From Cavenderia fasciculata (Eukaryota; Evosea; Eumycetozoa; Acytosteliales; Cavenderiaceae): a stretch of DNA of 64,000 nucleotides. A model generated the notes under the pieces. The model was not told where the DNA came from. It saw nothing but the letters and a program-made list of their open reading frames with translations, and ran no database searches. The stretch's first letter is position 1. Each line of letters begins with the position of its first letter. Below, piece after piece: positions 2,132 through 20,729 of this stretch. Both the position numbers and the translations under genes were made by a program. Location of the stretch: positions 4,092,674 to 4,156,673 of the forward strand of contig NW_004457729.1 of the NCBI RefSeq assembly GCF_000203815.1, read 5' to 3'.

Positions 2132-5100
2132 TTATTGATTACAAACTAATGGGGTATTCATACGAACTGTATAACTACAAGGTGATGATTGTTCTAAACT
2201 AGTCACAGATGTTTGGTTGGTACCTGTAGCACAATAAAATATAATCGATAAAATAGGTTCATTGGGAGAGCATTGTAATGGTAGAGGTTGGTTTTTAGAT
2301 GCGTTGGCAGGGTTGGTGGTTTTAGTTGTCAATGTAGATGGATTCGTATTTTTATAGATCAATGCAATTGAACCTCCATAATTTGATACCCATTGACTAT
2401 TTGAATTGTTGGCAACTAAAATCCATCTATTATAATTGTAACTGCTCAAATTATTATTACTATTGTTATTGGTTACCAACATACATGATGCCATATCATT
2501 GATTGATATTCCATTATTATTATTATTATTATTATTTATATATTGATCACCTAATTTTTGTATACATTGATTTGATGTTCCACAAATACTAAAAATTAAT
2601 GTTTTCTTTTTTAATTTTTAGTAAAAATAAATAAATTAATAAATATGTTTTTTGATTATAAATTAATTTCTTTTTCAAATATACATACAGTTTCATAACC
2701 AATTTTTGAAACAATTTGATAATCAACTCTTGATAGAGGAGTAAAATCAATACCTTGATATCTACATTTTGGATTTGAACAAGCACTTGGAGTGATCATA
2801 TAGATATCATATTCACAAGGTGATGATTCTTTGATCCATACGGTTGCAATGGTACTTCCACATGCCAAATGTATTCTAGTTGTTCTTGGTTTTCCACCTG
2901 GACACACTGGTTTTGTAGTTTTAATGGTCAGTGTAGCTCCGGTATTATTTGCCACATTTGGTGACCACGTTGAAAATACAGTCTCACCCAAATGAACGAC
3001 TGGTGAGCCTACTTTAGACAGCGATGTTTGACAAACTGATAACCCATAGTTTGATGAATTTTTTACCTTGTACGTACATGTATCACATACTCCACAAACA
3101 TTCCATTCATATTTATATTCTTGTGATACCTGTTGTTTTTGTATTCTACCATTAATACTAACATTCTTTTCTTCTATTGATTTAATTGTTTTTTCAAATG
3201 TAATTCTATATATAGATACAAAAAAAACAATTAATTAATTAATTTAAACAATCTTTTCTTTCTTTTTTTTTTTTTTTTTTATAAGGCATACAAAGACATT
3301 GAAGTAAAATCTAAACCATTATAAATACAAGAAGGATAAGATGAACGATCAATCATTGGGATATTGGTATTTGGATATGTGACAGTGGGAGGTTGAATGG
3401 TTACTGAAGGAGTCCAAGAATAAGGAGTGAAATAAGTTGATAGACTAGATGGTTTATCGAAAAGTGACAAGACAATGGGACCTGGTCCAGAGACGGAAAT
3501 GTTGCTATCATCAATGTCGAGAGAATATTTTCCATCGAGTTGAGATTTTGTTTTGAATTGAGTACCATAGTAGATGGCATTGATTGTGATTCCACCCAAA
3601 CCAGATTCTTGTCCCTCTCGAATAAAATTACGATTCAAATCATTAAAGACATATCCACTAACAACAATCTTTGAATAATTGAATGGATAGGTATTGGCAA
3701 GCCATGTTGACGATTGTTCAAGTGTAATAATATTTCGAATATTTTTGGGTGGTGGTGATGCAAGTCTTGGGAATTGACATGATCTTTTGCGAGTAGAGAG
3801 TGGAAGTATGTTGGTACACACCAATTTAGTGACTCTATCAATATATAGTTGAGGTGGGTTATTTATATCATAATCATTTCTAATTATAATATTTTGACCA
3901 AATCTTGAAAATGATGGATAATCATTGAATAAATCTGTTGCTGCAATTTCAATGATCCAAGTCGTAGAAGAAGAAGAAGAAGAAGAAGAGGTTGTTGCCT
4001 TTCTTGTTGGATTTATATTTCTTGTTGAATTGTTGATTATATATAATGGATTGTTCAAGTTGGTTTGTTCAAATATATTGACTAGTTGATCTGGTGGTGT
4101 AGTGGCAGACACTATAGCGGTGATTGGTCCACTGGCAAATGATTTTGTTTGTACACTAGTAGAAAAGGTAAATCTACCAATCGGAAGAGTAATGGTAAAC
4201 AATGATTTAAAATGTGATTGCAATGACATTGAAACTGGACCACTGAATCTATCCAATGTAAAGAATCCAACGTTCATTTCCAGCGATGTAGTTTGTGGTG
4301 GTTGGAAATTAAATGGTATATTATTGAAAATAGGAATGAGTGATTTATCACTTGATTGAATGACTACCAAACATGATAAAGGACAGTCAATCGATTGACG
4401 ATAGTTGGATAACTTTAACTTTCTCGTTTCCTGTTTACCATTGTAATTTGTCTTTACCAACACAATTACACTTGATAGTTGAGCAAAAGACAGAGGAACA
4501 GGAGGAGGAAGTCGAGTTTTAGAACCTACACCACCAATACTATTTATAATTTCACTATCAATGACCAAATTTAAATTGACAGTGTACTTGAAAGAGATTA
4601 AAATTAAACCATCTTCTTTTGTTGTACTGGCTGTACAATCATTTGGTAGATTAAACTGTAAAGTTGCTAGACATTGAGTATTATTTGTTATTCCTTTACA
4701 CCATCCATATTGATGTGGATTGTATTCACCGTTGGTGACTGAAATATTTTGATTTCCATATTTCATGAAACCACTACATCCATAGTCACCATAGTTTGGA
4801 TTGAGATTGTAAAGATTGGAATAAAGATAACCAATCATCACTTTTACAGATGATATATAGTCAATGTCTATTGAATTTTCATTCAATTGGGTGATAATGG
4901 TCGTTTCATTGAGGTATGAAGAAGAGGAAGAGGAAGATAATGGACTATTGTTGAAAATAACCATTACACTTTTGAGAAGATAAGATACTTGACTCGGAAT
5001 AAAGTCAGATCCTATGATTGTCACTCTTTTAAGTGTGGAGTCGATCGATATTGATTTAATCAATGGCGGATTGTAAGAGAATATAGGGGTGATACCAATA

Positions 5101-8100
5101 GTTTTTTGATCACGAACCGATAGGTCCAACCGCAGATTGGCACCAATACCTTTTGGCAATAGACATTCTATAAATGTGGCAAATTGAGAGCATTGATCGG
5201 TAATATCAATCGATTGATTAATACGGATATAGTTGATTGATTCACTGGTCATACCCAATCCACTACCATATAGATGTATAAACTGACCAACAGTTGGTAT
5301 CCTTGTTGATGAAAGGTACTGAATCTCTGCAGCAGCAAAATAAAATGGAATACGATTGGATAGTTGACCATCTACTTGAACCAAAAGAGGGAATGGTCCA
5401 AATGAATTGGATGGAGGTACTCTACATTGAATGGTGGTCGTATTGTATTCCAACACAAAGCATCTATAATCTCCAATATTGACTAGTGGTGGTGAAAGAT
5501 TGGTACCAAATCTCAAACCAATAATTGTGATTACTTCCCGATCGGTCTTGCTCCAAATAGATACCGATGAACTAGAGGTACCATTTAATACACGTTGAAT
5601 GGTTGGTGGTGAATAGGATATCATTGATTCGTTGATATCATCGTTTTGATAGGTCGACAATGTATCACCAATAAAAACTCTAACCAATCTATTTCGACCG
5701 ACCGCTCCACCGATCAAATTCATTTTACATATAATTTGGGTATGAGTAATCGATTGTATGCTACATAAATCTTGACCAATAAAAACTTGTACCTTGTTCT
5801 TTTCAAAACCAAAATTTAATCCTTTAATTGTAATAATACTATTATTATCAATTAATTTTGGACCAACATTATAAATAATTGTATCTATAAAAAAAAATAA
5901 AATAAAAAAAGTTAGCAAATCTAAATCTATATATATATTTCTTTTTTTTTTTTCTTTTTTACTTACCATTATAATTAAAAAAGAAATTAGATTGAGATGA
6001 TTGATCTTTAATTTTAATTTGATGAGATTTACCAATATTAGGAGGAACAATACAAATTAATTTAGTATTTGATATAAACATTGTTTGTAAACATTCCTTT
6101 TCACCAATCATAGCTACATTGTATTCTGTAAAATAGAAACCAATCATTGTAATTTGGTAACCACCAGTTGTCAGTCCAGATACTTGTTGTATGTTTGATA
6201 TGGTAGGTCCGATATTTTTACATAATCCATTGTCTATAATTATTTTTTCAACCTTTCCCTCTACACTTGTAGAATTGATCTTTGTAATATTTAAAATATT
6301 ATCCAAAAGTAATTTGTTGTTTACAAGAGCAACATCGCAAATTGAGTTATTAACAAGTGTGATCAAGAGACCAAAGTTGTTTGTCTTTAAAGTTGAAGGT
6401 GATGGTAAATAGAATAAATCTACGCCACCATTTATATTCTTATTAAGTTGAATTGAATTGATAGAGTTGATAGCCATTACTATTAAATTGGTTATTGATA
6501 CAATTGATAGTGGATTATTACAAAGATCAACTATATAACTTGAATTATTACTAATAGTGTTATTATGATTAGAGTATTTGTAACATAGTGTAATATCATC
6601 AGAACGAATTTCATGATAAATATCCTCCAAGTACTCTAATAGTTGAGATGATTGTTGTTGTTGAGGATTGTTTAATAATATTTGAATGGCTTGATTGTTT
6701 TCATTGATGGTAATCCACATATCCAATGATTTCATTATTCTATCAATTACTTCTTGACCCAAGTTATTTGTATTAAAACTTTCAATAATATCATTTGGTA
6801 AAGGTGACAACTCTCTTTCTCTACTATTTTTTGAAATATTTTTAGACTGTTGTTGTTGTTGTATTTCAGGTGGTGTAATGACAAGGTTGTAATATAATAT
6901 ATTTAAATTTTGCATGGTTGATGTAGAGGATAGAGGATCTAATAGATTGTTGAAATAATTATTAATTGATAATTCATTGTTGTTGTCTGCTGCCAAACTA
7001 AAAACAAGATTTAACAATTGAATCCAATTAAATGCCATTGATCCTTGATTTTCATCACTAAATCCAGGTCTTCCATAACCAACATCATTATTTAAATCCA
7101 TTAAATCCCAAAATGCTCCAATTAAAGATATCATTTGATTATTAAAAATATTAATATTTTCAACATCTAAATTATAATCTTTTGGAAATTCAATTGCATT
7201 AAAACATTTTGGTATTATTGTATTATTTAATTTGTTTTCAATTTCCTAAATAATAATAAAATAAATTAAACTTGATATAATATTTTTCTTTTTCTTTTGT
7301 TTACATACATTAAATATTTTCATTGAAATCGATAATGATAAAGCATTAAATAGAGTTTTGGTATTGTTTGAATTTTGATAACTGGAATAGGCTGTTGGTG
7401 ATTGAGAGACAATTAATTGAAGGGTTTGTAGATAAATTAATTCAATTGAACATTGTTGACTGTTGCTATAGATAATTGAGGTTTGATCAAATGTTGAACG
7501 ACTATTGGAAGGATTTCTACCATCAATATCATATTTAATTTGAATTGGTTTATCAATCCAATCGGTAAATATGATTGATAGTGGTGAATTGTCAGAGGTG
7601 GTGGTGAATTGTTGAATAATATTCTTAAACTTTTTAGCAACCATAATATCATGTTGAAACTCTATCCAACCGTCATCTACAAATTTCAATCTATCTATTG
7701 GTCTTGAAACAATAGAGGGAGATGAAAACGTTGATGATGGTTGTTTTAAATTTAATGGTGGGAAATCTATATTATTATTATTATTATTATTCTTAATTTG
7801 TTGTTGATTTAAATTATTTAATTGAATTGAATTATCCAATGTACAAGCAATAGGTCTGCTATAAGAATCTAATTGATAGATACAACAATAAATATTATCT
7901 GTAATTGATGCAGCAGTATAAAGGAGACTGTATAACCTTTTATCTGTAAACATATATCTACTCGAAAATCCAATACCATCTTGGCTCTCTTCTCGATTTC
8001 TTATTGATTTTGATGTAAATGATGATTGACTTGAACTGATTTGTACAAATTGTTTTAAAAGTTTGGTTCTAACTCCATTGTTGTAGTTTTCTCTCTTTTT

Positions 8101-10868
8101 AAATGATACACTATTATTCTTGTTGTTGTTGTTGTTGTTGTTGTTTTGATATCTTATTGGAATATTAAAAGTTTGAGGGAATATTTCCAAAATTTCAAAC
8201 GAAACACCAATACTACTACTATTGTTGATGGGTTGACCTAATGAATTTAAAATTTCCAATGGTTGAGAAAATGGTATTGACCATGGTAAAAGAGTTGTTT
8301 CATCTTCATCCTGACTAGTAGAATAATATGATACCATTCTATTAAAATAAAATGATAAATGATCATTTTTAAAACATAATATTCCTCCTCCTTTTTTTTC
8401 CTAATAATAAATAAATAAATAATAAATAATAAATAAATATTAATTTAAATATTCTTGAAAAGTATAAAATTGTTTTATCTTACATACTTGACCAATATTT
8501 CTATTTAAATCACCAACACAAAAAATTGAAATATCAAACCCACTTGATTTGATTGGGTACATGCTATAAGCTTGTTTAGAATATAAATTAATCCTACCTT
8601 TTGAATTAATTAAACCTTCTTTATCAAAATATGCTAAATTAAAAACAAATTAATAATATGTAAATATTTATCCTCTTTTTTTTTTTTTTACATACATAAA
8701 TATTCAACATTTGATAATTTGGCTTGAATTGAATTCTTTGGATCCAATTTTAAATTTTGAGGATTATAAAAATGATTTGATGATTGGGAAACAGTACAAC
8801 CTTCGACAAACATTGGTTGATCGTATAATTCTACAACTCTTTCCCAAATATCAACGCCGACATTCTTGTTATTGGTCGCAGAGGAGAATACTACAGTATT
8901 ATCTTTTTTACCAGATCTAGTAATATATTTGGTTATCATTCTAGGTTTTGAATTATTATTACTATTTGATTTGTTATTATTATTATTACTATTCTTTAAT
9001 ATACTTGGATATCTTCCTTGTGTTGTTGTTGTTGAAGGTGGTGTACTGTTTTCATTATTTTCATTATTATTTTGATCATCATCTTCATTATTATTATTGT
9101 CCTTAAATCTTGATTGTTGATTTAAATATTTTAAAGAAGCGGTAATACTAGTTTTAGTAAATAATACAGTATTTGATAACCCTTTAATTTTAATTGAATC
9201 ATCAATCCAATCACATTTACTATTTGAATTATTATTATTTAAAAAACTTGAACATTCCTACAAAAAAAAAAAACGATCAACAACAATTAATTCATTTCCA
9301 TTTCATTTGTTGTATGATATCACCATACATACATTTAAATAATTTGATTTTAAAGAATTTAAATTATCAATAAATGAATTCTGATTATTTCTATTATTAA
9401 AATCATCAATATTTGAATTATTATTAATTAATCGATAAGAGTATAAAGCTGCATTTGTTTGAGCATAATATTTCAATGCAACTTGGTAATTGTCAAATTC
9501 CCTACAAAAGAAATTATGATTATTGTTTGAATTCTAAAAACATGACATGTGTTTTGGTTAGTGTTTTTGTTAAAAAGCAAATAAATAAATAAATAAATAA
9601 AGGATCCATTTGTTTAGAAAAACACATAGAGAGAGAGAGATAGAGAAAGAATATAAATATAATTTAAATAAATAGGTATTATATATATACTTAAAACATA
9701 TAATATAATTATATATAACAATATAGTAAACGTAAAACGAAGCAGAGTTCATACTACTGGTACTTACACCTCCTAGCCATCCATGGCTATCATCGGCATT
9801 GATACTATCATCTATTAAATATTCACTGTCGTCATCGTCGCTATCGGTTGTTTTGGCCTGTGTGAATGGATCTAGAAATGTCAAATTAAAGTTACCACTT
9901 GAACCTTTGACTTGTTGATAGAATTCATCGTAGATGTTTTTCAATTCTTCCGTTTCCGTTTGTGTTATCGTTTTACTCTTTGATTTGTTATTCAATTCCA
10001 ACCATCTTGAGGCTTTTTGTTTGAGTCGTGGTGGTGTTGCAATTGCTGGAAAAGCCGGTACACTATGAATTATATGTATACCATGCATAGTTGATTCATC
10101 CCACATAAACAAGCCTTTTCCTTGACCTTCTAATCCATCGAGTGGATAGGTAACAGTTTGTTCTCCACTCTGTTCATCTCGATGACCTTGAATATCATTA
10201 TAAGCCAAATAATTATAATCTCTGTATTGTAAAAATGTTGCTGCTAATGGACTTACGATAAAATCACCAATAATAATAACATTATTATTATTACCACCAT
10301 TATTGCTGATTGGTAATTTTCTAATTAAATTTGATTTCCAAGATGGTTGAATATTAAGAGAATCTGAATAAATGTATCTTCCACCATCATTTTCATTGTC
10401 ATTGTCATTTGGTTGTTGTTGATTTGCTACCCAATAAATATACCACCAATCTACTTGTTTTTGAAAATTTGAACCAGTTGTGATAGGGTCTTGTTGTTGA
10501 TCTGAAAGACCTCTACATGTTAATCGACCATAGTAACGATAGTAAGCTGGGTCAGATGTCATTGTACCATTCACCTCTACCGTCACTCTAAATCTTCGAT
10601 TTGAAAGGTAGACTGGAAGAGTACAAGTGATGGAACGATCATCAAACACACTTTGTACAATACACTGACCAGCCCCAACCAAATTGACGACAATATTTGA
10701 AATGTCATCTCCAAATGCTCTTCCTTTGATTTCAATTGTCTTTACAACTCCAATCTTGCCTTTGGATGGCACTACTTGTTCAATGCCCAGAAACGGAAAT
10801 GCCAAAACATGGTGACAACTGGATTTAATTAAAAATATTAAATAAATTAATATTAATAATCTATTCAT
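2132..10868 (-). CDS. Giant secreted DNase II / IPT-TIG / SdrD-B / MRH protein
   Basis: Nine exons were spliced by eye: 10868-9768, 9533-9333, 9257-8696, 8633-8488, 8400-7309, 7245-5967, 5884-3292, 3205-2689, 2605-2132. All phases close, giving 2654 residues. The start is the ATG at 10868, which opens a hydrophobic signal peptide (MNRLLILIYLIFLI). Then come one IPT/TIG domain (about 27-115); a DNase II domain (about 115-690: VDWWYIYW, GKGLFMWDE, HSVPAFP, FCVGDLNRN, GGGILC) swollen by Asn-rich inserts; an unclassified block to about 1365; about five TIG repeats (to about 1800); an SdrD-B-like domain (GYVFNDLNRN, about 2197-2250); and two Cys-rich MRH domains (from about 2311). The second HxK of DNase II is not visible, so nuclease activity is doubtful. 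It lies head to head with its paralogue at 12317. The last acceptor is the least certain junction. Confidence 0.78.
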
Positions 10869-12214
10869 CACAAATAATAAAAATGTTTAATTAAATAAAA
10901 TAAATAAATAAATAAAATAATTATCACTATTATTACTACTACTACTAATATTATTATTTGTTATTATTATTTTTAGATATTTTTTAATTAAAATGTTTAA
11001 AAAATAAAGTAAAGACTCTTAACCAATACTATCCCCTAACAATTTCCGAAATTGGGCATGGATTTGACTTCAAACAGAAACCGACACTATAGTACGTGTT
11101 GTAGTAGTGATGGTAGTAGTAGTAGTGTTGATGGTGACGATAAATGGGTGGTACAAATAGTACTAACGATTAAAGTAACTATCATGCATTCATATAATAA
11201 TAGTGTTGGAAATAACAATACCAATAATACTACTCTTTAGACACAAAGAGAGAGAGAGAGAGGAAGAGGATAAGAAGAATAATAGCAGTAGGTAGCGTAG
11301 CGTAGACAAGAGAAAGGACATATATTAATTTGATATGGATGGGAATAGATAGATCACTCAATTGATCATATCATCTGAGTGTGAGGAGTGGAGAAGAGAA
11401 AAGAATGTGTAGAAGCAAAATTGACGATATATATATATATAACAACAGATCTTGAATGTGTGTGTTTCGAGAGAGGGGTACATACATTTGATTTTAACCA
11501 AAACAAGTGTCGTTCAACTGATCAGTTGAATGTTGACTATTATGATGATTGGTCATTATAAGATCTTGTTACCAATCAAATTAACTCAATCATTTATATA
11601 TCATGATTCATTACACACCACGATGCATCATAAAAGTAGCTACCACCACCACCACCATATCGTTGCTGAAAGAAGAGTTGTAGAGTTGTCGTCATCCACT
11701 CTGTTATTATATGTGTGTTACTCGTGTCATGTCGTTTCTGCTTTGAAATCTATCTATCTATCTCTATGCACACAAGTAAATAAATACAAGTAAGAAATGT
11801 GTGAAGTTCATTGTACGCATTCTCTCTATTTTTGTATTGAATTATTTTGGTTTATAATATTATCATTCATTCACTTTATCGGTTGAATATTTATGATATA
11901 CCAACAACATACACTATCTATTTACAAATGGGTAGTTGAATATAATCCTTACATCTATATGCACTAGCTTATACAATCAATCAATCCTCAACACCCTACC
12001 TCTTGTCTACATCTATCAATCTCTCTGACCAACACACATTATGATGATGATGATGATGATAAAGGTGATTGAGAGTCTGGTTTGACTTGGAAACAAAGTG
12101 TAAAGAGTAAGAGTGTTATCTTTAAAAAAATACAGGTTAATCAACAACCTACTTTTTACTTTTTAACTTCTACACTAATATTACTACTACTACTAAAATT
12201 TAATATTATTTCCC

Positions 12215-12245
<31 letters not shown>

Positions 12246-12316
12246 ATATTATTTGTATGTCAATCTATTTATTATTATTATTATAATTTAAATATATAAA
12301 TATAATCATCTCGACA
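10869..12316. promoter_or_regulatory. Divergent intergenic promoter region, 1.45 kb
   Basis: This gap separates the two divergent DNase II-TIG genes and must hold both promoters. It contains AT-rich stretches, an (AT)n run at about 12217-12240, short GA and TATC tracts, and a near-identical ATTACTACTACTACTAA-type tract close to each start codon (about 10931 and 12180). Short open frames inside (for example 11052-11240 and 11530-11793) are low-complexity and look like chance. No tRNA or other known RNA gene was seen. Confidence 0.5.
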
Positions 12317-15300
12317 ATGATGATCATCATAGTAAACTATAATCGATACAATAATTTATTGATACTATTTTTAATATTATTTGTAATTACATCATCTTTC
12401 CATTGTACTACTGCTATATCACAACCAACAACAACAACCACTACTGCAACTTGTAAATCACCAACAGGTGATTCAGTACAATGGTGGTTTATAAAGAAAC
12501 TACCCTATTCAAACCAATATATTTATATTGATAACGATTCAAAAACTGTATGTATTGATCCATCTGGTTTTATATTTTATTTTATTTATTTATTTATTTA
12601 TTATTGTCAATCTAGATTCAATTTCAAAATGATTTAAGTGATGATCAATCAAGTTTGGCAAGAACATTATCTCAACTTTCTCAACAACAACAACAACAAC
12701 AATTGAATGGTGGTGGTGGTGGTGGTAGTGATCAAAATGATAATAGCGATTATTATTATTACTTTTATAATAATGAATTTCAAAACTTGAATAGTAATGA
12801 TAGAACCAACTTTCCACTACCAGCTGATAAATCAACTATTCAACCATCAACCGTTTATAGTTCATCAAAAGGAATAGTAATATTAAACAAACCACCATTA
12901 CAGAATAATAATACAAATAAGACATTTTCAGGAGCTTATATAGTTCATTCTCTATCAAGATTTCCTCAATTGACCACCACCACTACAAATTCATTTAAAA
13001 CACCAATTACACATCCAAATGGTACATGGTTTCCAACCGACTATTACCTCTCTCCACTTTCACCTTCACCGAGTTCATCGTACGGTCATTCACTTGTTTG
13101 TACATCATTTAAAGACTATGAAGATGTACGATATCAAATTCAATCAATCTATCCATACATTTACATGACCAATCTCAACCTACCATTCAAAGACCCACTC
13201 CTAAAGTCTACATTTAATTCACTCTTTTATCCCACCTATCCACCAAAATCATTGTATCTCAAACCCGATGCTATTAAGCTTCAATCGCTCTCTAGCCGAG
13301 ATGATAATGGTGATCGCGATCCCAACTCATCCATTTCGATTACTAGTTCGATAAAATGGGGTGGGGCATCAATTTGGCATTCATCAAATACTATAAACTA
13401 TATCTCTATACCTGTATGTTACAATTTAGATATATATATATATAAATAATTAACAATTATCATTTTTATTTAGAGTAAATATAAAAATCCATTACCAACA
13501 AACAATGGTAAAAATTCAACGATGGTATCATCTCCGATTACACATGTTATAAATTCACAAAAATTGCCAGGTGATTTGGTGACTAGATATAGAATAGATA
13601 GTGATAAATCACAATGGGATACAAGTGTTGATAAAGGTATATTTGGTGTTTCTACAATACAATCTTTATCTTGTATTGGTGATTATGATCAAAATATTAA
13701 TTCGGTAAATATATAAAATAATTATTATAATCATTTTGTACATTTGATTGACCCTTTCTATCTTTCTTTTTTTAGGCCAATGGAGAATTAATGATATGTA
13801 TAAATAATTCTATATTATCATCACTATTAAAATCAATGATTGTTAATTTAAATCCAATTCAATGTCATAAAGGAACTCCGTCGCCGACTTTATCAAACTG
13901 TACAAAACCAATAACAACATTAAATAGATTATTTAATTTTAATGGAAAGATTGGAATGAATATAAATGATTTAAAATCTTTGGACAATGAACTGATAACC
14001 TATTTTAAAGAGTTGCAATACAATATAGGTCAACCATTTTATTTGATGGAATCTACAAGTCTATTGGTTTATAACCCATCTATTGGTTGTAATCAACAAG
14101 ATGATCAAGATGGATCGGAGTTTGATATAATTGGTCAATTGGTACAAGTTAGAGGATGTAAATTGATGGATTCAATCTTGGAAACGAGTGTTTTTAGACT
14201 ACAAGATGCAGTGGTTTCATTTAGAAAAGAGTATTTACCAAAGATTAAAGTCCTTTTAAATGATCCCAGCTACTTGGTTTCAATTCATTACCATTCCCGT
14301 ATAATCACATTTCAAAGCATACAGAATGCAAAAGATTCAACAAGATTTGATTTGATTCTAGACAACAAATCACCTTCTCAAAGAATAATATTAATCTATA
14401 AAATATTAATATCATTACAACAAATATCAGAATCACTAGACAAGAGCAACTTGAAAAGATCAACAATAATCATTAATATTGACCATGATTATAATAGTGC
14501 AACCATCAATAATGATAAAGAGACAACATTTCAAATTCAAGGTATCAATCAATTCTTTCAATCCTATTCTCTTTATTTATTAAAACGTCTATGTCCATCG
14601 ATAATGACCAAAGATGATGAATCATCACTCAACAACAATAATAACAACAACAATAACAAACCATCAACAAAAGAACCACTAAGACAAGCACTTATCAATA
14701 TAGTTGCAATCAAATTGTTTAGATTGATATTTCCATTTATGGAATCATCTATGATTGGTACTTTTAACAATGGTTTGGATGGTTATGAATCAGATGGTGA
14801 TATTATCGAAGAAGACTATGGATTGTATTCATCAGAACGTATTACAACCTTTTTATTGGACCTTGTTCAAGACAATCAAGAACAATCAGACTATTACAAA
14901 ATCGCCTACAACAATAACAAAAAGATTACTAGAGTCCCCTTTTCAACGTTTTTGAATATGTTGTCCTCATTTCAGTCAACTTTGCAACCAGCCTCTTCCA
15001 ATATTCATCAATTTATTGATAATGTTGTCATTCGATACCTTTCATTGCAACCAGAATATAGAGGAGTCGATTTACAATCGTCAATGGCTCACATTAAATT
15101 TTCAAACAATATTTATCAATGTGATTATTGTACAGTACCTCCTTTTATTAAAGATTCATTTTACGATAGTTTTAAATATTGTCTCAAAAGTACAAATCCC
15201 TCCAAATCGACACTAGAAGATCTTGGAAAGGCTCTGTCTGGTTGGGTTGGTAATGACCAATACATTGTTACATTGCTTAGTGACTTTTCATCACCCAACA

Positions 15301-18300
15301 ATAATCTACAAAGAGGATTAAAACTATTAAAACATTTAATTGGTTGGAGTCTTGGGGAACATTGTGACTATTTTGGAGTGTTTGGTGGTCATCCTTGGAC
15401 TCCTCGTGGTGTTGTCCTCCTCACTTCTAGTTTATCAAGACTCATTGGATTTGCAAATGAAACGATCAACTATCCCGGTGAATTGGTAAAGACCTATTAT
15501 ATACCATGGATGAATGAAAGAGTTCAAGCTCCTCAAACTCAATCTGGTATTGGAATTGTAGTGGTTGACAATTTAATTTGTAGTTTTGGACAATACACAC
15601 TTCGAGAATTTAAAGAAAATGGTGGACGTGTTTTATTGCAATCATGTCCTCTTGCTCCCATCATTTCAACTATTAAATACCAAAAATCACCCTACTCATG
15701 GAATTCAACCACCATTACCATTAGTGGGTTTTCTCTTTTGACCTATTCATTTCCATCTACAACTCATATTCAACTAAAACTTACCAAAGAGAATGATAAA
15801 AGATCTCTGTCATCTTTGGTGGATTGTCAAGTTGGAGTTGATTTGGATTTTGATGATACTCAAGATACCATCATCTGTCAAGTGCCTGGTGGTTATGGAA
15901 ACTATACAATTGATATTGTAAAAGATGGCTTTAATTTTAAATCAATGTCACGTTTTAATAATCAAAACAACTATGGCAACGGTGATTCGATTGAATATAG
16001 ATCAACAAATTCTTTTAAATTCTCTTATTCTCGTCCAGATATTATATCAGTCACCTCAATGTCCTATCCACTTGACAACTATGGTACTGATATAACAATA
16101 AGAGGTATTAATCTTTTTAGAGATGCCAACAATCTTGGTAATCTAAAACTATCTCTTGAAAATAATAATCATTTTAAAATTCAAATTCCAATTTTAAAAT
16201 TTGAAAGAATTAAAAATCAAGATTATCTTTATTTTAAATCAAATGGTTCTGGTGAAAATAAGTATGTAAAAAAAAATATAGAAATAATATAATATAATAT
16301 ATTTATATTTATTAATTTTTTTTATTTAGTTTAATAATTTTAAAAATTGATAATATTATTATAATTAGAGATTATATTGGTAATTCAAAGATTAATTTTA
16401 AAATACCAATTATAAAGAATATAACTATTGGTAATATATCAAGTAATACATTATCATGTAATACAGGTGATATATTAACTATTAGAGGTGAATCATTTGG
16501 ATCAAGTTTAAATACACCCATTTCAGTCATGATTGGAAATACAATATACTTGTCAAATCAACAATACAATTCTTCACTGATTCAATGGATTAATAATAAT
16601 CAAATTAATGTTATTTTACCATCTGGTATTGGTCGAAATCAAAAATTAAGATTAGAAATTAATGGTCAACTTGCCATAATACAACAACAAACCAAAAATA
16701 ATAATAATCAAAATAACTCAAGTTTATTTATTAATTTTAATTCACCAAGAATAGAATATTTGGTACAAAAACCAAATAGTATTAGTACATTGCTTGGAGG
16801 AATTGGATGGATCATTGGTAAAAATTTCGGTTCAATCATGGATACAATACCATTGGTAACCATTTATGATGGAACCGTAGAATTGGATTGTGATTATTAC
16901 AACAATAACAATTTTAATCCATTATCATTATTACCAAATGATTTAAAATTGACATACAACTATGAAATATTGGAATGCCAAATACCACCTGGTATAGGAG
17001 ATGATATAAGACCTCTTTTGGTTGTTGGTGGATTGGAATCAAATTTACCTAGTCAAACCATTCGATACAACCAACCAACTCTAGAATCAATATCAAGTTA
17101 TAGTGGAGATACAGGTGGCACTGAAATTACAGTCAATGGCAGAGACTTTGTACCAAATGAATTATTATCAAATGATTTGGTCGTGGATAATAATAATTTA
17201 ATATCTGGAGATATAAATTATAGTAACATTAAAATAATATCAAATAATCAAGATGAAATTTCATGTCGTTCTGTCAATTGGTTGACTTCACAAAAGGCAT
17301 CATGTATTATTCCACCTGGTATTGGAAAGAATTTCCAATTCCAAGTGATTGTTGGTTATCAAAAATCAAAACCCAATAGATCACTGTTATTTTCATTTAA
17401 TCAACCAATCATCAACTCTATAAGTAGTAGTAATACGTGTGGAAGTGAAATTACCATCAATGGAATGAATTTTATTCCGATGGGATACCAACAACAATCA
17501 TCGTATATCTCTAGTGATAGCAATTTTGTAAAGATTGGTAATAAGCTATGTGATGACATTGTTTGGATCGATGATACAACTATTATATGTCAATCACCAC
17601 CTGGTCTTGGAAATAATATAAATGTCGATATTTTAATTGGTGATCAACCTCTGGCCATCCCCTTCAACTCCTTTTCATATTCTCCACCAATCATATTTGG
17701 AAATCAATCCTATAATTGTCCAACCATTGGTAATAATCGTATAACTATTATTGGTGAAAATTTTATCCCCTCCATCCTCCTCAAAAATAATAGTAATAAT
17801 AATAATAATAACAAATCAACAATTAAAATTGATAATAGAGAATGTTTGGAAATTAAATGGATAGATTTTAATAGAGTTTCATGCTTGGTACCAAATGGAG
17901 AAGGTTATGATAAATCTATTATTGTAACTGTTGGAGGACAGTCTTCAAGTGGAAATAACAAATTATTTTCTTATCTTGCTCCCATTATCTATTCAATCAC
18001 TCCAAACAAAATTAAAAATCAACAACAACAACAAAAACAACAACAACAAAATAATCAACAACAGATTATTACAATTGTTGGTGATAATTTTGGAATACAA
18101 CCACAAGTTTTTATACAAGGAGAAGATGGTACTTTATTAAATTGTACTGTATCATCAAAAAGAGATGATAGAATTATTTGTTCTATTCCAAAAGGGATTG
18201 TAAAGAATTCATTACAACCTATAGAGACACTGGTATACCAGGTTACAGTTGGTGCAATGGACGGAAGAAAAAGTCAACCACTAGAATTTACATATATTGG

Positions 18301-18861
18301 AGCACCAAAGATTTATTCCGTTCAGCCAAGTAGAGGATCAATAGTAGGTGGCTATCCAATTACGATTAATGGTAATTCGTTTATTGAAGGAACACAATTA
18401 TCTGTATCATTTAATGATAGAACCATTGGTGATGATCAAATGGTAGAGCAATCAAACTCTAGGATCATATTTAAAGCATCGTCTGGTGGTGGTTCCAATA
18501 TTCAAGTTTATGTAGTCGTTAAAATGGGTGAAGAAGAATATCTAAACAGTAATGAAAATAGAGAATTTAGCTTCAATGCGCCAATAATAAGATCCATATC
18601 ACCAAACAAGGGAAATAGCAGATCAAAGATTAAAGTAGAAATTAAAGGATCAGATTTGGGAACACTAGACTCTTCTAATGTTACCATTGGTGGAATACCT
18701 TGTACTGATCCAATTTATTCAAAAGATTCTACATCTCTCAAATGTTTGGTTCAACCATCAAACAAATTGGGTAAAAAACAAGTCAAAGTGGAATTTAAAG
18801 GTCAAATTTCAAATTTAAATATTCAATTTACACATCAAGATTATAATGATAACATTTATGA

Positions 18862-18896
<35 letters not shown>

Positions 18897-20729
18897 ATAA
18901 TGGTGAAGAATATACATCAACACCAAAACCAACCAATACTCCAACTCCAACACCTAAACCAACAACAACAAAAAAAGAAGAAGCAAGAATTGATGGTAAT
19001 ATATTCCATGATGCCAATTTTAATAACCTATTTGACAAGGGAGATGATCCGATGGTTAATGTTAATATTTCATTGATTGATGATCAAGGAATACCTAGAT
19101 ATACAACACAATCTACTCGATCTGGATATTATTCATTTACATTGGCAGTTGATAGTAGATATAATTTTAGACTTTTGGTAGATCAACCACTCTTGAAACC
19201 ACCATCAGATACATTTAATTCAGAATTTCAAGAAATTGGTTATATAATTCCAATTAATTATATTCCTGTCTATATTTATTCAAACACTACTTATATTAAT
19301 ATTAATATTGCTATATTTTCAAAATGTATGTAAAAAAACAAAACAAAAAAAAAAAAAGTAATAATTTATTAATTATTATTTTTAGCATCATTGGATTGTG
19401 TTGGTAGTTTAATATCAGATAGAAATCAAACCTTAAATTTACAATATGGAGTATTTGATTTAACCTATTTTGATTGGAAATCTTCAATGGTTAAATATTT
19501 TGTTTTCCCTCAAATTTGTAATGTTCTTTTAATTGATGATACTATCATTAGAATTAGATATAGTATGTAAAACATAAAAACAAACCAAAATAATTAATTT
19601 ATTTTTATTTATTTATTTATAGAAACAACATTAAATATAACATTATTTTATGATAATAATATGAATGGACAAATTGATAATGATGAAAAGATTGATTATT
19701 CAAATGATAAATTTATATTGACAGTACAGTCACAAATGAATGGTAAAAATGTAGTACTATCCTATAACACTACAATATTTTCAACCAATCATATCATCTA
19801 TGTACCAGGTGATTCTGTACTTTCATTGGTTAGAATTTATAATAATCTATTTAATCAATCTTCGTCGTCATCGTCGTCGTCGTCGTCGTCACAACATCTG
19901 TCGCCATTATCATCACCAAGTAATATTACAATACCAACAGTAAACAACAAGGTGATACCAATTGCAAGTCCAACCCTTCAAACCACAACATTTGTTCAAT
20001 TTGGAGTATTTAGAGTACCAAATAATCGATCAACCATATCATTTAAAGTTGTCTATGGTAATGTCAATGGTGGTAATGTCAATGGAGGTGGTGGTGGTGG
20101 TAGTGAACAAATATTAAATCTTTCCTATGGTAAATATGAAAGTTCATTTTTCAACTCTGCAGGTTGGTTCCAATCTCTAAACAAAAATGCAACCATTAGT
20201 TTTAAACTAAGTAATCCCAATCAAGCAGTTGCTATTTCTACCACACCAAACCCAAATATCTTTTCTTTTAATCCATCTTTAAAACATTCAGTCATGTCTT
20301 TTAAATTAAATCCTTCTTCTTTAATTTTTATTGAAATATTTGATCAAAGTATGTAAAAACAAAACAAAGATAAATTTTAAAATCTTTACTAATTTATTTA
20401 TTTATTTATTTATATGATAAGAATTATTTGAAAATATTCAAGTACCATATAATGGTGGTATTATTAATATTAAAAGACATTATCAAAATATACCAATATT
20501 CTATTTAAACCTAATAGAAATGAATTGTTATATAAACAATGACACTGATACAATGATACATTGTGATGTACCACCGTACAATGGTGGATCAGTTACAAAA
20601 TCTATTACATTAAAATGGAATAATATCATTCTTTATGCAAATTATTATCTAACCTATGGTAATAATAATAATGAAAATGGTGATTATAATAGTAATAGCA
20701 ATAATAATAATAATCAGTTTGATGAATAA
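12317..20729 (+). CDS. Giant secreted DNase II / IPT-TIG / SdrD-B protein (paralogue of the divergent neighbour)
   Basis: Eight exons were spliced by eye: 12317-12547, 12616-13413, 13474-13704, 13776-16261, 16330-19325, 19386-19562, 19623-20348, 20422-20729. They close in frame to 2650 residues. A hydrophobic signal peptide (about 1-35) and Thr-rich linker precede a DNase II domain (about 46-430) with SVQWWFIKKLP, VHSLSRFP, YGHSLVC and SCIGDYDQN. The second catalytic HxK position reads DKSQW, so His is replaced. A middle block (about 430-1040) has no family I know. About ten IPT/TIG repeats follow (about 1045-2075), then a Pro/Thr linker, an SdrD-B-like domain (IFHDANFNNLFDKGD, about 2133-2185), a second similar segment (FYDNNMNGQIDNDE, about 2310) and a short tail. 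There is no C-terminal membrane anchor. Probably a secreted matrix or binding protein (inference). Confidence 0.8.

Follow-up and report, generated by a model that had tools for sequence, protein, structure and literature searches.

Divergently paired DNase II-TIG genes in Cavenderia fasciculata: a multi-locus family of candidate heterotypic partners

The closest described counterpart of the genes treated here is the TgrB1/TgrC1 allorecognition pair of the social amoeba Dictyostelium discoideum. TgrB1 and TgrC1 are encoded by paired diverging genes with a common promoter, they form heterodimers, and they have local duplicates; the two partners also diverge unequally, 80-90% versus 65-70% (PMC12324515). 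One-to-one tgrB/tgrC orthologues are reported only in the discoideum clade; more distant species have looser homologues (PMC12324515). The present analysis concerns a stretch of 64,000 nucleotides from Cavenderia fasciculata (contig NW_004457729.1, positions 4,092,674 to 4,156,673 of the forward strand), called the window below. Two giant genes near its start, A on the minus strand and B on the plus strand, join a DNase II-like domain to IPT/TIG domains.

Both kinds of domain have been counted in dictyostelids before. The IPT/TIG family OG5_153020, which is expanded outside D. discoideum, has 9 members under Ddis (D. discoideum), 43 under Asub, 35 under Ppal and 50 under Dfas (D. fasciculatum) (PMC4334915, Table 2), and deoxyribonuclease II activity is among the Gene Ontology (GO) terms enriched in lineage-specific expansions (PMC8535579). 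These two counts may each have taken in parts of the DNase II-TIG family; the sections of the two reports that were available mention no fusion, pairing or loss of catalysis (PMC4334915, PMC8535579). A first-pass annotation of this DNA knew of no described protein that joins DNase II to TIG repeats and an SdrD-B-like module, and no description of such a fusion was found in the dictyostelid, TIG or DNase II literature among open-licence papers.

The family resembles Tgr in its TIG domains, in paired divergent genes of two classes (at eight of nine loci) and, in the window pair, in a signal peptide. Local duplicates and unequal divergence of the partners are further likenesses to TgrB1/TgrC1, drawn from description and not from sequence (PMC12324515). 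Unlike Tgr, the proteins have a DNase II or pseudo-DNase II head; DNase II goes unmentioned for Tgr in the available text (PMC12324515). Tgr proteins are also described there as transmembrane (PMC12324515), whereas a hydropathy scan (window 19, threshold 1.7) found no transmembrane segment past the signal peptide in either window protein, and for that reason the window proteins are not filed as Tgr. The same scan gave at least one internal hydrophobic segment in several paralogue models, most of them scoring 1.7-1.9. The DNase II-TIG giants are longer than Tgr proteins.

We propose that the window holds one of the many loci of a family whose genes are heterotypic partners, here a TgrB/TgrC-like heterophilic secreted pair with nuclease or pseudonuclease heads, and give this reading a probability of about 45%. 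The anatomy of the pairs is well supported; the mechanism is what we infer from it. A and B of each pair would be co-expressed from their common intergenic region and would bind each other outside the cell via their TIG domains, as TgrB1 and TgrC1 do, with the DNase II or pseudo-DNase II heads conferring specificity on the complex. A may, in most pairs, be a nuclease as well, and B its adaptor or regulator. For the window pair binding alone would be left, the target being either a partner or nucleic acid.

The family was surveyed in this one genome (31.0-Mb assembly, 21 contigs), and 150 of 449 candidates were scored in the genome-wide TIG search. DNase_II gave 33 exon-level matches here, whereas 14 control genomes had none. 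Among the 33 are a canonical stand-alone DNase II gene (C7:1359541, E 3.5e-88), three tandem genes on C12 and four weak matches (C1, C16, C18, C21). The remaining 25 fall into 18 genes. Window gene A, absent from the genome matches, was recovered when its spliced protein was searched with Pfam, and brings the family to 19 DNase II-TIG genes at nine loci, designated C2, C5 (the window), C7, C9, three on C13 (units a, b and c), C14 and C17. DNase II matches adjoin TIG matches at all nine, and this recurrence means that the neighbourhood is not chance.

These counts rest on the DNase II and TIG domains and not on model lengths. The B model at C17 (4,600 amino acids, aa) is over-long, and the A model at C9 and both C14 models possibly are; start exons are doubtful in A_C14, A_C7 and A_C9a, and the model of B_C13a begins with a spurious 5' end in which X stands for a stop. 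For units b and c of C13 only the DNase II part was retrieved, and their TIG arrays are taken from places in the genome search.

The genes fall into two classes. In the A class (10 genes) a signal peptide is followed by TIG modules, DNase II, an unclassified block and a TIG array; the B class (nine genes) has signal peptide, DNase II, block and TIG array. Every locus has one A and one B, with a second A at C9 only. The first residue of DNase II is at aa 797-917 in eight A models, at about 1,105 in C14 (where the start is doubtful) and at 128 in window A. A single domain order had been proposed for both window genes; it holds for B, while in A a TIG sits between signal peptide and DNase II. A and B stand head-to-head at eight of nine loci (binomial p 1.1e-4 if random orientation gives 1/4), or at six of seven (p 1.3e-3) when the C13 triplicate is counted once.

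At C9 (296951-325060) two tandem A genes lie beside one B; the additional A is downstream, and no partner of it was seen there. The B gene of C14 has a long C-terminal exon with six carboxypeptidase-regulatory-like stretches. On either side of the C17 cluster stand copies of another gene family in inverted orientation (730647-733214 and 761598-764262), both with a KSVITNKQ motif. The three tandem DNase II-like genes of C12 (1289382-1297536) have models of 709-781 aa with a long charged C-terminal extension, and no TIG match near them appeared among the scored candidates.

A tree of the DNase II domain (23 sequences, 332 columns, model VT+F+I+G4) places the A genes in one clan, with an approximate likelihood ratio test (aLRT) value of 94 and ultrafast bootstrap (UFBoot) support of 86. 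The B genes are split from A, the C12 genes and the canonical gene at 98.3/98. Topologies were compared on 16 of the 23 sequences, and separate A and B clades fit as well as the maximum likelihood tree. An independent duplication at every locus, making all pairs local sisters, was rejected by all tests, with p 1.6e-36 in the approximately unbiased (AU) test.

For the window itself the first-pass annotation had proposed a local inverted duplication with one common regulatory region. The divergent layout, similar lengths and common domain list agree with such an event, and the conservative Shimodaira-Hasegawa (SH) test (p 0.125) does not reject window A and B as sisters. The AU test (p 3.7e-7) and the Kishino-Hasegawa (KH) test (p 0) do reject them, the sister tree is 54.7 log units worse, and window A and B are 23% identical. 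A local duplication is thus largely refuted for the DNase II domain and is, as an account of the pair, barely credible. Within its own class, window A is 29-33% identical to six other A genes, and window B 22-32% to six other B genes. A regulatory region common to the two genes is plausible from the layout: they are separated by a divergent intergenic region of 1,448 bp (10869..12316).

On the sequence evidence, then, A and B represent two paralogue classes of old origin. Over seven loci the A and B distances correlate, both on the tree (Mantel r 0.65, 22 of 5040 permutations) and by identity (r 0.61, 9 of 5040). C13 groups with C14 as its sister in both classes (UFBoot 96 in A, 100 in B); C9 groups likewise with C17 in B (99), but only weakly in A (24). 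C2 is placed differently in the A and B trees, and branches within A are weak. Most likely the A/B pair is an old unit that was duplicated as a unit.

DNase II (PF03265) belongs to the PLD superfamily and has a solved relative in PDB 5i3e/5unb. Its two PLD halves hold two HxK motifs and meet at the active site (PMC9208542). Motif positions were anchored on the canonical gene, whose motifs GHTKG and DHAKW were aligned to PDB 5i3e. Both motifs are reportedly requisite for DNase II, going by the title of a 2007 study by Schafer. In the alignment the canonical gene, the three C12 genes and nine of the 10 A genes have both complete, and neither is complete in any of the nine B genes: the B gene of C2 retains H with R in place of K, and in that of C17 a His is displaced by one position. 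All 23 sequences retain the histidine of the HS..FP motif. The family is thus like DNase II in its full-length domain and, in most A genes, its motifs. It is unlike DNase II in being embedded in giant TIG proteins and in lacking a complete HxK in all B genes and both window copies.

In window A both catalytic histidines are replaced and both lysines retained. The first site reads GQGKG (10113..10127, minus strand), with His replaced by Gln (codon CAA), and the second LYSK (8575..8586, minus strand), with His replaced by Tyr (codon TAT). In window B the first site is SSSKG (12859..12873, plus strand), with Ser for His; at the second, VDKG / DKGI (13627..13638, plus strand), His is replaced by Lys and Lys by Ile. 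The window proteins have a DNase_II domain above cut-off, as an active DNase II would, and neither has the two HxK motifs. Both copies look dead as judged from these residues, so the pair probably acts by binding and not by cutting. A nuclease-derived recognition protein, as first proposed, is a good hypothesis for the window pair because neither protein retains HxK; it cannot simply be extended to the family, since nine of 10 A genes retain both motifs.

Those nine genes, with a very variable stretch between their motifs, would also suit a role in feeding or antibacterial defence. A would be a secreted nuclease digesting prey or biofilm DNA, varying in an arms race with bacterial inhibitors, and the TIG arrays and B an adhesive adaptor or decoy. 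The multicopy genes and the window proteins, in which no membrane anchor was found, are compatible with this. It leaves unexplained why A and B are paired and diverge in correlation, and why the motifs are lost in all nine B genes and in window A; moreover, the genome already has the canonical DNase II and three tandem copies with motifs intact. We regard this explanation as rather unlikely.

Recent duplicates give another view of the two classes; the comparisons are few, namely the three units of C13 and a single pair on C9, and proteins were compared in windows of 100. Between units b and c of C13, about 1 kb of A N-terminal exons is 97-100% identical in DNA and the A DNase II region 58-85%. 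In protein, A residues 1-280 are 98-100% identical, and the DNase II windows of A are 51-77% identical against 92-97% for those of B. Identity in A is lowest (51%) in a window between the two HxK motifs, both of which are intact. Unit a compared with b and c gives 38-82% in the DNase II of A and 82-98% in that of B, apart from a first B window of 64-68% where the model is faulty. The C9 A duplicates also have their lowest window in DNase II (58%, dS 0.70); they are 84-98% identical on the 5' side, with other stretches down to 69-73%. In these recent duplicates, divergence is far greater in the DNase II of A than in that of the partner B.

Live and dead genes in head-to-head pairs, duplicated as units and with a variable live partner, would also be expected of a nuclease effector and its antidote, in which polymorphic A hits non-kin cells and pseudo-enzyme B neutralises or addresses it. 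Yet B is a giant of similar anatomy and not a small immunity protein, it is conserved where A varies, and the window pair has no live partner. This arrangement is distinctly improbable.

Several results weigh against the heterotypic partner reading itself. To the missing transmembrane segments and the SH result on the window pair may be added the tandem pair at C17 and the extra unpaired A at C9. Promoter motifs (G-box-like, CACCC, TTGTGTG) in eight intergenic regions were not consistently above shuffles; the lowest p was 0.02, for the G-box of unit a of C13 (2 versus 0.11). The divergence of A is not confined to DNase II. Between units b and c the trough is broad, with 88-91% identity at aa 277-670, 74% at aa 670-768, 63% after DNase II and then 87%, and between unit a and the other two the whole A N-terminus before DNase II is at 56-73%. 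Furthermore, dS and dN climb together in the A DNase II, and for this reason positive selection is not claimed. Omega is 0.29-1.53 in 15 windows of the C13 A DNase II and exceeds 1 in three of them; in the B DNase II windows of C13 it is 0.2-0.89. Selection is not needed to explain the peak: an older coalescence, gene conversion of the flanks or a hot spot of mutation can do so. The pattern fits homogenisation of flanks around a protected or hot segment, and it does not prove selection.

The two window genes themselves are multi-exon and divergent, as first annotated, A running from 10868 to 2132 and B from 12317 to 20729. Splice-aware models of A, a putative secreted giant, have exons at 10868-9691, 9501-9333, 9257-8696, 8633-8488, 8400-7309, 7245-5967, 5884-3292 and 3205-2689; the last exon or exons, down to 2132, are uncertain, and the protein is 2,525, 2,631 or 2,669 aa by the choice made there. 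The models of B, likewise putatively secreted, have exons at 12317-12547, 12616-13413, 13474-13704, 13776-16261, 16330-19325, 19386-19562, 19623-20348 and 20422-20729, giving 2,650 aa (2,604 in an alternative model). The lengths first annotated were 2654 and 2650. The N-terminal hydrophobic segment expected of a signal peptide is present in both proteins, by hydropathy.

The first-pass annotation had suggested Pfam searches of the spliced proteins, and DNase_II and TIG are above cut-off in both. In A, DNase_II matches in two stretches (E 2.4e-19) and TIG at E 1.1e-35; the DNase II-like domain extends over five exons (8300..10463, the low end approximate, from Pfam and alignment). In B, DNase_II matches at E 9.2e-41 over profile positions 1-325 of 326 (12449..13856) and TIG at E 1.1e-57. 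For MRH, also named there, A has an MRH-like PRKCSH_1 match (2689..3205; E 1.5e-5, 25.2 bits against a cut-off of 23 bits), and no PRKCSH_1/MRH match is reported for B.

The fusion could be an artefact, each locus being several separate genes or the window genes being pseudogenes. At some other loci the gene finder did fuse neighbours, and in window B the junction of block and TIG spans a predicted 68-bp intron, behind which the TIG array begins according to Pfam. In window A, by contrast, the exon at 10868-9693 alone carries TIG (2.5e-8) and DNase II (4.4e-13), which bears out the proposed fusion, and the exon at 7245-5968 holds the end of the block and TIG (5.5e-10). A B paralogue on C13 also has block and TIG (9.8e-10) on one exon. 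No internal stops occur in the 2,525 codons of A or the 2,650 of B as spliced, and the order recurs at other loci. An artefact of this kind is very improbable.

The A class differs from B in its N-terminal modules. Window A has a single N-terminal TIG (10533..10784; E 7.0e-8 in the genome search, 2.5e-8 in the exon). Before DNase II, eight A models together have 51 internal exons; the length of 46 is divisible by three, many hold by eye one TIG/E-set unit each, and the first exon ends in phase 1 in seven of the eight models. Such multiple-of-three module exons were seen in the A-type genes at C2, C7, C9, C13 and C17. Symmetric modules are also known from animal extracellular proteins, and an exon of this kind can drop out with the reading frame preserved. 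The best matches of the TIG of window A are to the last of the N-terminal TIGs in the two A genes of C9 (5.2e-5, 8.5e-5); therefore window A seems, by this similarity, to have lost its other N-terminal TIG modules. No open frame resembling further N-terminal TIG exons was seen by eye in 10869..12316.

Between DNase II and the TIG array lies the unclassified block (6222..8300 in A, 13857..15644 in B), which gave no Pfam match above cut-off in either gene and none at E <= 1 in B. The two blocks are homologous by hhalign (probability 99.1, E 6.9e-19), over an aligned range that takes in the first TIG. The B exon at 13776-16261 contains the final 27 residues of the DNase II match and then the entire block; by itself it has zero Pfam matches at E <= 1. 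A search of the genome with the B block matched nothing but the block itself at E <= 0.001, its divergence being too great for such a search. A profile search of the PDB gave two chance-level matches, both serotonin receptor. AlphaFold, run on the block with three window rows, gave a useless model (mean predicted local distance difference test score 35.1, predicted template modelling score 0.24).

The TIG array of A was matched at 5343..6207 (TIG search and Pfam). That of B has seven TIG stretches at 16330..18990 (Pfam and genome TIG search), and TIG-like sequence can be seen by eye from 15645 onward. A TIG exon matched 17 sequences in the PDB, none of them Tgr; the best were circumsporozoite proteins (on a low-complexity stretch), followed by the hepatocyte growth factor (HGF) receptor and plexins.

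Near the C-terminus of both window genes is an SdrD-B-like domain, as first annotated, though both matches are weak and below the Pfam cut-off of 29.7 bits. In B (18998..19177) it scores 22.9 bits (E 1e-4) in the whole protein or 25.1 bits in the exon. In A (3516..3668) it lies far below, at 15.1 bits (E 0.027) in the exon, and Pfam finds no SdrD_B in the whole spliced protein. SdrD_B does exceed the cut-off in several paralogues. The domain recalls the SdrD_B/Cna_B giants, which we take to be the colossins; unlike those, each window gene has a single weak copy. A colossin-like giant was seen elsewhere in the genome, at C8:586082-609196, where an open frame of 8,080 codons is densely filled with SdrD_B repeats.

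As partners of two matched classes at nine loci, with a very variable domain, these genes are a candidate system for discrimination between kin and non-kin in social amoebae other than the model species. One further possibility, a long shot, is that these head-to-head nuclease/pseudonuclease TIG pairs form a multi-locus recognition system of social amoebae outside D. discoideum. The live nuclease head would then be a polymorphic tag and the dead sibling its matching receptor, while pairs like that of the window would have given up catalysis and serve recognition purely. If true, allorecognition here would come with its own nuclease effector, and would either parallel tgrB/tgrC or predate it. 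The family would also provide a clear case of an enzyme fold recruited as live and dead partner pairs within giant secreted proteins.

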